Assembly: GCA_003139695.1 (NCBI GenBank) | Contig: PLJM01000017.1 | Location: forward strand, 1-64,000 | Origin: Candidatus Dormiibacterota bacterium | GTDB lineage: Bacteria; Chloroflexota; Dormibacteria; Dormibacterales; Dormibacteraceae | DNA length: 64,000 nucleotides | Direction of reading: 5' to 3' | In this document: positions 55,403 to 59,541 of the stretch, piece after piece | Position numbering within the stretch: the stretch's first letter is position 1 | Layout: each line of letters opens with the position of its first letter | The notes under the pieces: generated by a model | Told to the model about the DNA's origin: nothing | The model's input: only the letters and a program-made list of their open reading frames with translations | Databases searched by the model: none | Translations under genes and position numbers: made by a program

Positions 55403-55424
55403 CGTGCAATTCCGTGGCGACGAA

Positions 55425-56828
55425 ATGATCGGGCCCGACTCGTTTCACACGATCATCGAGCCGTTCAAGATCAAGACGGTCGAACCCATACGGATGACCT
55501 CCCGCGACCAGCGGGCCACATTCTTGAAGGAGGCGGGCTACAACCTCTTCCGACTCGCCTCTGACAACGTGCTCATCGACCTCCTGACCGACTCCGGCAC
55601 TGGCGCCATGAGCTCCGAGCAGTGGGCGGGGATGATGCGCGGCGACGAGGCCTATGCGGGCTCCAGCAGCTTCTTCCGTTTCGAGAATGCGATCAAGGAG
55701 CTGACGGGATTCAAGCACGTCATACCAACCCATCAGGGCAGGGCGGCTGAAAGGATACTGTTCTCCGTCACATCTGGACCCGGCAAGGTCATCCCAGGCA
55801 ACCATCACTTCGATACCACCCGGGCGAACATCGAAGTCACCGGGGCTGAGGCTCTCGATCTCCCCTGCGAGGAGGCTGCCGACCCATCGCAGCCGGCGCC
55901 ATTCAAGGGCAACATCGACCTGAAACGGTTGGAACCCCTGCTTCAAGCCCGAGCTCGACAAGTACCCATGTGCATCATCACGCTGACCGACAACACCGGT
56001 GGAGGGCAGCCGGTGTCGCTGCGCAATCTCCGCGATGCGCGGGCGCTGCTCAACCAGCACGGGGTTCCGCTGATACTCGACGCCGCCCGCTTCGCTGAGA
56101 ACGCGATGTTCATAAAGATGCGCGAGCCGGGGAATGCCGGCAGGACGCCTCGAGAGATTGCCCGCGAACAGTTCTCTTACGCCGACGGCTGCTTGATGAG
56201 TGCGAAGAAGGACGGGATCGCCAACATTGGCGGCTTTCTGGCGTTGAACAACGACAACTGGGCCGACAACGCCCGGCAGCTCCTGATCCTGACTGAAGGC
56301 TTCACGACATACGGCGGTCTTGCGGGGCGGGATCTGGAAGCGATCGCCCAGGGTCTCGAGGAAGTCCTACATGAGGACTACCTTCGCTACCGGCTGCGCA
56401 GCGCGGAGTATCTCGGCGCGGGGATCCGTGATGCTGGCATACCGATTGTCGAACCGCCAGGCGGCCATGCCGTATATATCGACGCGCGAGCGATGCTGCC
56501 CCATGTGCCACCCGAGCTCCTGCCAGGCCAAGCGTTGAGCTGTGCACTCTATGTCGAAGGCGGCGTGCGCTCGATCGAGGTCGGGAGCGTCATGTTCGGC
56601 CATACCGATCCTCAAACGGGGCAACAGGTGCCTGCGGACAAGGACCTTGTGCGCCTGGCCCTGCCGAGGCGCGTCTACACCCAGAGCCACGTCGACTACG
56701 TGATCGAGGTGGCGCAATTCCTGGCCCGGAACCGGGCGGCGATCGGAGGCTACCGGATCATGTCCGAACCGGCCGCGCTGCGCCATTTCACCGCCGTCTT
56801 CGAGCCAATCGGCCCGGTCACTTGCTGA
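55425..56828 (+). CDS. Tryptophanase / tyrosine phenol-lyase (beta-eliminating lyase)
   Basis: LIDLLTDSGTGAMSSEQWAGMMRGDEAYAGSSSFF, HVIPTHQGRAAE, PLP Lys in FSYADGCLMSAKKDGIANIGG. Confidence 0.9.
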   Translation: MIGPDSFHTIIEPFKIKTVEPIRMTSRDQRATFLKEAGYNLFRLASDNVLIDLLTDSGTGAMSSEQWAGMMRGDEAYAGSSSFFRFENAIKELTGFKHVIPTHQGRAAERILFSVTSGPGKVIPGNHHFDTTRANIEVTGAEALDLPCEEAADPSQPAPFKGNIDLKRLEPLLQARARQVPMCIITLTDNTGGGQPVSLRNLRDARALLNQHGVPLILDAARFAENAMFIKMREPGNAGRTPREIAREQFSYADGCLMSAKKDGIANIGGFLALNNDNWADNARQLLILTEGFTTYGGLAGRDLEAIAQGLEEVLHEDYLRYRLRSAEYLGAGIRDAGIPIVEPPGGHAVYIDARAMLPHVPPELLPGQALSCALYVEGGVRSIEVGSVMFGHTDPQTGQQVPADKDLVRLALPRRVYTQSHVDYVIEVAQFLARNRAAIGGYRIMSEPAALRHFTAVFEPIGPVTC

Positions 56829-57179
56829 TCACCTCGACTGGGTAGCCGACCTACGGGTTTCCTCCTGCCCACCGGTGATGGACTGGAGCTGGACGACGTG
56901 CGCCTCGAAGATTTGCCGGGCCACATCCAGCAGCTTGTTGACCTGACGATCGCGAAGTCGGTAAAAAATGACATTGCCCTTCCTACGGGTGTCGACCAGG
57001 TTCTTCATCCGCAGGATGGCGAGCTGTTGAGAAACCGACGAGCCCTCGGCCGACAGTGCCAGCTGCATCTCGGTGACGCTCTTCTCGCCGTCGCGGAGAA
57101 GCTCGAGGATGCGGATTCTGGCCGGGTGTGCGAGGGCCTTGAACAGCTCGGCCTTAAAGCTTTGCAATGAACCAGTCAT
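56829..57179 (-). CDS. ArsR-family helix-turn-helix transcriptional regulator
   Basis: LFKALAHPARIRILELLRDGEKSVTEMQLALSAEGSSVSQQLAILRMKNLVDTRRKGNVIFYRLRD. Confidence 0.92.
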   Translation of the reverse strand: MTGSLQSFKAELFKALAHPARIRILELLRDGEKSVTEMQLALSAEGSSVSQQLAILRMKNLVDTRRKGNVIFYRLRDRQVNKLLDVARQIFEAHVVQLQSITGGQEETRRSATQSR

Positions 57180-57266
57180 ATCTTTGAAGATTCTAAACTA
57201 CTGCAGATGTTCGCTGGTGCGTTTGCTACAATATCGCAAGATTCAGATGTATGGGGAACCGCGTCA

Positions 57267-57716
57267 GTGATCCAGGGAGTCCACGCACAGAGCGTTGTTT
57301 TCATCGGCCCGGAGTCGGTTGCCGGCTTGCTGCAGGGGGGACTCTGGCGGGGGCCCCAAGGCCGTGCCTCCACTGCCGAGCTCGCCTTCACTGGCACCTG
57401 CCCAGACCGGTTGGTCGTGCGGATCGGACAGATTCGGTCGTCAAAGAGGTCCGCTTCCTGCAGCTTCCAGCTGGAGTCCCCAATAGAGCGCTTCAAACCT
57501 AAGGTCACGGGCACTCTTGAGTTCATCGAGGCCCCGGCGCGCGGCCGTACCAAGGTCATTCTTCAGGGTACGGCAGATCGCGCTCTGGTCGGCACGCAGG
57601 CGCCGACCGAGGCTGTCCGAGGAGTCGCCAATGAATATGTCCGCCAAATGCTCGATGAGATTGCAAAGAGGCTAGAGGAGCTGGTTACGAGCGAGCCCGC
57701 CAAGGCCAAAGGCTGA
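57267..57716 (+). CDS. Hypothetical protein, possibly SRPBCC-like
   Basis: GTG 57267 lies downstream of a TACAAT -10-like box (57227-57232); the annotated ATG at 57207 would precede that promoter. Confidence 0.5.
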   Translation: MIQGVHAQSVVFIGPESVAGLLQGGLWRGPQGRASTAELAFTGTCPDRLVVRIGQIRSSKRSASCSFQLESPIERFKPKVTGTLEFIEAPARGRTKVILQGTADRALVGTQAPTEAVRGVANEYVRQMLDEIAKRLEELVTSEPAKAKG

Positions 57717-57763: not shown

Positions 57764-58144
57764 TTGCTGATCTTTTTATGGCGGGCGCCGTACTTGTGCG
57801 GAATGAGGAAGGTCCAGCCCAAGAGCGGCCGGCCGGACGTCGATGCGGCCATACGCGGCGGCGATTGGACCCAACCAATGGATGGTGAGGGTGCTCCAGA
57901 ACAGGCGACGCTCAAGCAAGCGCTCTACTGGAGGCAGATTTATACCGAGATCCTAGCCATGGAGGAAAAGGTGCTCGTCCGCATCCGCCAATTGATGCTC
58001 ACCCAGTCGGGCGTGGCCCGCCGCGAGGTCGAGCTGACCAGCGTGCCGGTCGTCATCGGCCAAGTCGAGAGGTTTCGGCAGCGCCTTGGATACTGGGAGG
58101 CGCGGGTACAGCAGGTCGGCGGCGATTCTCGCCTGGAACCTTAG
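57764..58144 (+). CDS. Small helical protein sharing a domain with the 58972-59541 regulator
   Basis: ALYWRQIYTEILAMEEKVLVRIRQ...VARREVE...RFRQRLGYWEARV aligns almost ungapped with ARHWMSIYVDLLEFKRGILDRVRR...VAQRAAQ...GYQKRLEIWTRRV. Confidence 0.6.
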   Translation: MLIFLWRAPYLCGMRKVQPKSGRPDVDAAIRGGDWTQPMDGEGAPEQATLKQALYWRQIYTEILAMEEKVLVRIRQLMLTQSGVARREVELTSVPVVIGQVERFRQRLGYWEARVQQVGGDSRLEP

Positions 58145-58167
58145 ACGAGTCAGCCCGTGGCTTCCGA

Positions 58168-58911
58168 CTAAGCGACTGAAATCTTTGGCTGCTGGAGCAC
58201 CAAGCGGTAACCCTTACCCTTCTCGTTGACCACCTCGCACACGCCTTTGAACGGCAAAAGCTTTTGCCGAAGCCGCGCCACGTAGGTGCGGAACTGCTCG
58301 ATCGACGCTTCGGGGCCCCAGGCCGGCAGAGCCACGTCCTCGGCGGCGAAGAACTGACTCGGATTGGCCAGCAAAAATGAGAGCAGCTGCCACTCGCGCT
58401 TCGTCAAGGAGGCTGTGGCCGCATCGCTCTTAACCGTTCGCTGCTTGGCGTCAAAGACGAGGCCGCCCAATTCGATTTTGGTGGCGATCGAAACCACCGA
58501 GGCGACGTCCGGACCGCGCAGCACCGACTTGATCGCCCCGATCAGAGCGTCCGGGACGAAAGGCTTTGGCAGAACTTGGCTTGCACCCGCTTCGTAGGTT
58601 TCGAGGGTTGCTCCGGCATCGTCGGACGACTCATCGAGCAAGATGAAAGGGGACCGAGCCGAAGCCTTCAACTCACCGAGTTGCTTGGGGGTTACGCGGG
58701 AGTCGGCGCTCATGCCGAGAATGACCAGGTCGAACTTCCGGGGCCTCTCAAGTTGCAGCTTCGCTGCGTCAAACTCAGCCACACTCTCAAATTCCCCTCC
58801 CGACAGCTCGACCACATGTGAGATGACGGAACGGTAACCGGCGTTAGCGTCGACGACCAGGATGCGGGGCAGTTTGGCTCGCTGCCGCGGCCGAGTCTTT
58901 CTCTTTCCCAT
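58168..58911 (-). CDS. OmpR-like winged-helix protein with degenerate receiver domain
   Basis: Receiver-like ILVVDANAGYRS...FDLVILGMSADS...VLPKPFVPDALI, with Gly at the usual phosphoacceptor Asp; C-terminal SLTKREWQLLSFLLANPSQFF...RTYVARLRQKL. Confidence 0.75.
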   Translation of the reverse strand: MGKRKTRPRQRAKLPRILVVDANAGYRSVISHVVELSGGEFESVAEFDAAKLQLERPRKFDLVILGMSADSRVTPKQLGELKASARSPFILLDESSDDAGATLETYEAGASQVLPKPFVPDALIGAIKSVLRGPDVASVVSIATKIELGGLVFDAKQRTVKSDAATASLTKREWQLLSFLLANPSQFFAAEDVALPAWGPEASIEQFRTYVARLRQKLLPFKGVCEVVNEKGKGYRLVLQQPKISVA

Positions 58912-58971
58912 TGCACTCCCTATTGCGGTTCATGGCCGTCGCTCAAATTATGCGGTGGCGTCAACCGGTCG

Positions 58972-59541
58972 CTAATTGTCGAGGCGGAGCTCCAGGGAAT
59001 AGCCGCGACCCGCCTGGTCGACCAGATCGCACGGGATTTCCAATTCCGCAAGGATCATTTGCACGCGCCGGACGTAGTTGCGGACCTCCTCCGGGAAGAG
59101 GGCGGGCCCGGCCCAGGCCTGGCTCAGGATCTGGTTGACGGTGAAATAGCGGTTTGGATGATCAAGCAGGAATTGGAGGAGCTGAAACTCCCGCGCGGTG
59201 AGCGTAGCCTCCCCACCCTTATAGCGAATCATTCGCCCCTCTGGATCCAGCCAGAGGCCGTCGAGATCCCAAACGCGTCGTGTCCAAATCTCGAGCCGTT
59301 TCTGATAGCCGTCCATCGGGCTCTCGATGATCTTGAGGTCCGCCTGTGCTGCCCTCTGCGCGACTGGCTCCAGCTTGGCTACATTGCGCCTGACCCGATC
59401 GAGGATTCCCCGTTTGAATTCGAGGAGATCGACATAGATGCTCATCCAATGGCGGGCGTCTTCACTACGGGTGGTTCCAATGTCTTCACCCTCGAGCGGC
59501 GGGGAACCTTCATCCATCACTGGCGCGACGAAATGTGGCAC
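58972..59541 (-). CDS. Winged-helix (OmpR/PhoB-type) DNA-binding protein with unnamed N-terminal helical domain
   Basis: TLTAREFQLLQFLLDHPNRYFTVNQILSQAW...EVRNYVRRVQMILAEL...GRGYSLEL; no receiver domain. Confidence 0.75.
   Translation of the reverse strand: MPHFVAPVMDEGSPPLEGEDIGTTRSEDARHWMSIYVDLLEFKRGILDRVRRNVAKLEPVAQRAAQADLKIIESPMDGYQKRLEIWTRRVWDLDGLWLDPEGRMIRYKGGEATLTAREFQLLQFLLDHPNRYFTVNQILSQAWAGPALFPEEVRNYVRRVQMILAELEIPCDLVDQAGRGYSLELRLDN

Follow-up and report, generated by a model that had tools for sequence, protein, structure and literature searches.

The window analysed here, a stretch of 64,000 nucleotides, includes three small genes, here referred to as A, B and C, along with a short DNA box and a -10-like element that precede A (Table 1). 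Upstream of the A promoter, a gene for an ArsR-type regulator (56829–57179, minus strand) is divergent from a gene for a weak Polyketide_cyc2/SRPBCC-like protein (57207–57716, plus strand), and a complete Beta_elim_lyase gene of the tryptophanase/tyrosine phenol-lyase type (Pfam E 3e-73) is found at 55404–56828. In a preliminary description of this DNA, A was taken to be a 126 aa open reading frame beginning with the TTG at 57764. However, as a conserved promoter element begins with base 57764, the start is most likely the ATG at 57803, which gives a protein of 113 aa. The possibility that the block upstream of A is translated, as a leader peptide or an N-terminal extension of A (LLIFLRR..), was rejected, as the frame is broken or includes stops in several loci (L083, L087, L080, L084 and L085). 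The same block also precedes unrelated genes, which argues against a leader peptide.

Table 1. Features of the A–B–C region (positions are those of the window)
Feature	Position	Strand	Basis or remark
Regulatory box TTGCTGATCTTTTTATG, predicted operator/activator site of A	57764..57780	+	match to TTRCTGANNTTNTTAYG; direct repeat, 12 bp period
-10-like element TACTTG	57791..57796	+	transcript predicted to be leaderless, beginning at or beside the A start codon
Protein A, standalone hairpin, 113 aa	57803..58144	+	ATG start, translation
A hairpin domain, residues 37–110	57911..58132	+	AlphaFold2 model, profile match
Protein B, pseudo-receiver and Trans_reg_C winged helix, 247 aa	58168..58911	-	Pfam; downstream of C, same direction
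Protein C, N-terminal hairpin and OmpR/PhoB-type winged helix, 189 aa	58972..59541	-	GTG start, translation, Pfam Trans_reg_C
C winged-helix DNA-binding domain, residues 97–185	58987..59253	-	Pfam, AlphaFold2, Foldseek
C hairpin domain, residues 26–93	59263..59466	-	AlphaFold2 model, alignment with A

The preliminary description proposed that A and the N-terminus of C share an unnamed helical domain, and this proved to be real. The two align over approximately 85 residues with 24% identity (BLASTP, 32 bits, E 6e-7), and the alignment score of 87 was not reached by any of 2000 shuffles (29.7 ± 5.2). AlphaFold2 predicted the same antiparallel two-helix hairpin in both, with helices at residues 37–65 and 70–110 of A (mean pLDDT 86) and at residues 26–54 and 59–93 of C (mean pLDDT 88), where the winged helix follows. 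Iterated profile searches over 65 loci recovered 114 domain open reading frames and placed the A and C domains in one family of about 115, with the consensus (L/M)xGEDPxT...DARHWxxxYxELLxFKxxLL...RLxFWxxRxxELxG. An alignment of 20 diverse hairpin domains was too variable for use in scanning contigs. The domain lies outside every Pfam, NCBIfam, PHROG and PDB family searched: A had no match in Pfam, NCBIfam or PHROGs, the A model had no significant match in Foldseek (best E 1.8), and nothing significant was returned when the hairpin profile was compared with the PDB. A is strongly conserved, with 33 of its 113 columns invariant in 27 homologues. These include an N-terminal segment, RPDxxAAxRGGD, that C does not have.

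In a phylum-wide sample, 26 genomes had the hairpin domain. Each of them is from Dormibacteria, the class to which the window belongs, and no genome outside that class had it. Similarly, nearly all relatives of C recovered in the genome scan are in Candidatus Dormibacterota/Dormibacteria bins. One near-type A–C pair (L190, PMLV01000048.1) is in a contig labelled Acidimicrobiaceae, which is probably a mis-binned Dormibacteria contig. Viral contigs searched with A yielded no match, and plasmids searched with C yielded only weak matches, mostly to the winged helix. A mobile or viral origin was therefore rejected.

Hairpin-only genes were also found with no C within the fetched stretch. One directly adjoins a PspA/IM30-like gene (L113:4256-5733) and another is near a Transgly_assoc-like gene (L131:3914-4863), each a further link to envelope stress. 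Distantly related hairpin proteins adjoin genes for CheB, CheR-PAS and hybrid histidine kinases in a further set of loci (L099, L100, L101, L105, L106, L108, L109, L111, L128, L129, L133 and L137–L139), which are apparently not chemotaxis operons.

C was confirmed to be a hairpin fused to an OmpR-type effector domain. Pfam detected Trans_reg_C at residues 111–182 (35.9 bits; cut-off 26.2) and no receiver, and Foldseek matched the C model to the effector domains of SaeR, CovR, CadC, VicR and PhoB (E down to 6e-5), with matches confined to winged-helix effector domains. B, which had been described as a second atypical regulator, is also a winged-helix protein (Trans_reg_C, 34.6 bits), and its receiver does not have the phospho-acceptor Asp. 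The Response_reg match of B (26.9 bits) is below the 30.2 cut-off, and alignment to solved regulators revealed Gly in place of the Asp (FDLVILGMSADS), as is also the case in the B homologues seen. Thus, neither protein is a response regulator in the sense of having a receiver with a phospho-acceptor Asp, and B, with Gly at that position in a receiver-like domain, belongs with the aspartate-less receivers.

Examination of the neighbourhoods of hits revealed that A and C have remained neighbours despite rearrangement in about 45 distinct loci. Among the fetched loci there were 46 A–C neighbour pairs, 20 divergent, 15 in tandem with C first, 8 in tandem with A first and 3 convergent. Distances between A proteins were correlated with those between the neighbouring C proteins (r 0.94, in part reflecting shared species history; the best of 2000 permutations reached 0.50). 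Absence from known families, A–C adjacency, correlated distances and a control element that co-occurs with C (see below) together give good support to the earlier suggestion of a small uncharacterised regulatory module.

The A and C of the window are not the usual pair, though, but a composite of two related modules. The C of the window groups with C genes that precede B (support 99/89), a gene order that is common to this C clade and in which B is operonic with it, while the A of the window groups with A genes preceded by a different C, several of them upstream of ice-binding genes. L158 is arranged similarly, its two modules facing one another. The genome that includes the window has other A–C pairs, divergently arranged, in contigs C14, C18 and C1, and contig C19 carries a C, a B-like gene and fragments of A. 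Several of these copies are decaying. The C gene on contig C1 has an internal TGA (G000 C1:266245-266984; L012), much of the second hairpin helix is gone from that on contig C18 (G000 C18:1540-2514; L011), and the A gene on contig C19 has been split by a frameshift (G000 C19:13543-16430; L009).

The shared DNA box and the candidate regulon that it defines are additions to the preliminary description. The block upstream of A is nearly invariant (TT(G/A)CTGA-N-CTT-Y-TT-R-Y-G) and lies 39–43 bp upstream of the start in 37 of 38 A genes. A strict 17-mer, TTRCTGAHCTTYTTRYG, occurs four times in the 3.3 Mb window genome, each time just upstream of an A gene. The relaxed 17 bp form, TTRCTGANNTTNTTAYG, can be read as a direct repeat with a 12 bp period (GTTRCT-N6-GTTAYG) and lies 11 bp upstream of the -10-like element. 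It has 10 exact sites in the window genome and 59 in 61 genomes, where the reversed control has none and two, respectively. At index 28 relative to the box there is an A in 38/42 sites upstream of A genes and in 39/41 exact sites elsewhere, and at index 32 a T is present in 36/41 of the latter. These bases would match -11A and -7T of a -10 element located 11 bp after the box, and they are conserved separately from the box, with constant spacing, across unrelated promoters. The window genome includes two pairs of opposed boxes with an equal spacing of 91 bp (G000:C31:7066-7173 and C1:256505-256612), possibly bidirectional promoters of the box regulon.

More distant A–C groups have direct repeats of their own upstream of A, again with a 12 bp period. 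These are GTGCTG-N6-GTGCTC in L097 and L104, with a similar repeat in L098, and TTGCTG-N6-TTGCTG in L105, with a close one in L106. Three genomes each have a single exact copy of the GTGCTG-N6-GTGCTC core, and the other 58 have none.

Genes downstream of the box encode A, YggT-like, ice-binding and Transgly_assoc-like proteins, LuxR-type regulators, and CsbD-like and other small stress proteins (Ice_binding, Sortase and Transgly_assoc were named from Pfam, and CsbD, YggT and LuxR were read from the sequences). Across the 61 genomes, 15 have both an exact box and a near-C gene, 44 have neither and two are discordant (15/1/1/44; Fisher p 4e-12, a value that overstates independence because the genomes, mostly metagenome bins, are related to one another). 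The exceptions are G010, which has a box with one mismatch, and G013, which has the box and no C that could be found, and is 59% complete. Box and near-C are patchy inside genera, and the agreement holds there too (G000 with and G001 without; also g2 and g8), so it does not merely mark one clade. When a box was counted with up to one mismatch within 450 bp, 11/17 ice-binding genes in genomes with near-C had one and six did not, compared with 0/13 elsewhere (p 3e-4). In near-C genomes and G013, every close YggT-like gene that was scored has a box with no or one mismatch, except that of G023, with three mismatches, while the YggT-like gene of G017, which lacks C, has no box. In G031, a genome without near-C, both A and its box have decayed. 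C itself rarely has a box, and self-regulation of C via the box was rejected, as no good match lies upstream of C other than in L094 and in those divergent loci whose box is oriented towards A. B was likewise rejected as the general reader of the box, as it is present in only a subset of near-C loci.

The domain family, the A–C pairing, the box with its -10-like element, the targets and the co-occurrence with C were computed directly. With moderate confidence, we consider the best overall explanation of them to be that C, as a PhoB-type regulator independent of phosphorylation, activates a cold and envelope stress regulon, with A as its main target and tuning partner. That C reads the box is probable, given a PhoB-like protein, a PhoB-like site, their co-occurrence and the A–C adjacency. 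The winged helix of C would bind the tandem direct repeat TTRCTGANNTTNTTAYG, which stands in place of a -35 element 11 bp before the -10, and C would, without a need for phosphorylation, turn on the A, ice-binding, YggT-like, Transgly_assoc and CsbD-like genes. The hairpin takes the place of the receiver in C, where it would most likely form a dimer and receive the input. A, a hairpin without a DNA-binding domain and the most constant target of the box, would most likely bind the hairpin of C, either as feedback, in which hetero-dimers reduce DNA binding, or to present a signal to C. B, a pseudo-receiver regulator operonic with the C clade found in the window, probably provides a second, non-phosphorylated input. 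That C activates, that the hairpin dimerises and that A joins C via the hairpin and tunes it form a set of inferences for which we judge the chances to be even. Dimerisation of A with C through the hairpin is plausible; as Foldseek returned no solved relative, it has no backing from a known structure. The origin of the window C in the C–B clade, rather than in the clade usually found beside A genes of the window type, counts against the overall explanation.

Could the box instead be the site of an alternative sigma factor or some other regulator, with C and A mere members or neighbours of the regulon? The box occupies the -35 position, at a constant distance from a -10-like element, which would suit a sigma factor, as would the resemblance of the box genes to a general stress regulon. 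However, the conserved block is 17 bp long and takes the form of a direct repeat, unlike a sigma -35 element, and the presence of the box, compared with that of near-C, tracks it even inside one genus. Moreover, distant C groups have diverged boxes of like architecture before their own A, which is what a reader encoded next to A would predict. We regard an alternative reader of the box as distinctly unlikely.

Two-helix hairpins of the kind in A and C are usually unstable without a partner. This, together with the retained adjacency of A and C, their correlated distances and the 33 invariant positions, speaks against A being an effector stress protein that is a target of C and nothing else, with a hairpin shared by descent (in either direction) and no A–C interaction. 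We find that reading somewhat doubtful rather than improbable, as regulators often adjoin their own targets and some hairpin-only genes, such as those beside the PspA-like gene in L113 and the Transgly_assoc-like gene in L131, have no C in the fetched stretch. A might also help C rather than oppose it, as a co-activator or signal adaptor that bridges C to B, to CheB/CheR-linked sensors or to RNA polymerase. The invariant N-terminal segment specific to A and the hairpin genes that adjoin CheB, CheR-PAS and hybrid kinase genes in other lineages are consistent with such a role, but the CheB/CheR link is absent from the window and the near group, and an adaptor role seems rather unlikely. A broader proposal sees the hairpin as a new signalling domain, the founder of a regulatory network specific to Dormibacteria. 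In such a network, exchange of A-type hairpin partners, linked in some lineages to CheB/CheR sensor clusters, would control receiver-less winged-helix activators in place of receiver phosphorylation. We put this forward as a speculation that is unlikely to hold.

Dormibacteria are known almost solely from soil and permafrost metagenome bins. None of the papers searched combines Dormibacterota with a response regulator, and gene regulation in this group is essentially unstudied. The conservation of A with C, and the box that A shares with ice-binding and envelope stress genes, point to an undescribed stress control circuit in uncultured soil bacteria. Laboratory tests in a suitable host can now address a domain, a regulator, a partner, a candidate binding site and a list of targets. 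If hairpin partners drive C, promoters of the PhoB type can be run without phosphorylation.

Compared with known systems, C resembles members of the OmpR/PhoB family (PhoB, SaeR, CovR and VicR) in its Trans_reg_C winged-helix effector domain and fold, and its candidate site is likewise a tandem direct repeat about 10–11 bp upstream of the -10. In Escherichia coli, the tandem direct repeats bound by PhoB lie 10 bp upstream of the -10 (PMC1906773). However, C has an undescribed helical hairpin where those regulators have a receiver, and the period of the box repeat is 12 bp rather than 11. B resembles the aspartate-less receivers, of which RitR is the archetype (PMC4395418, PMC12632262), in being a PhoB-type protein with a receiver minus the phospho-acceptor Asp. 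It differs from the RitR type in its Asp to Gly change, in being operonic with C and in its occurrence, among the loci seen, only next to C. The closest parallel for A is one of logic, not of sequence. H-NST corresponds to the oligomerisation domain of H-NS alone and acts as an antagonist of H-NS, most likely by forming hetero-dimers (PMC7074111), and A is also a short protein that matches only the non-DNA-binding part of a DNA-binding relative. In contrast to H-NST, A is unrelated in sequence, is found beside C and across a whole class rather than on mobile islands, and would be an antagonist by inference.
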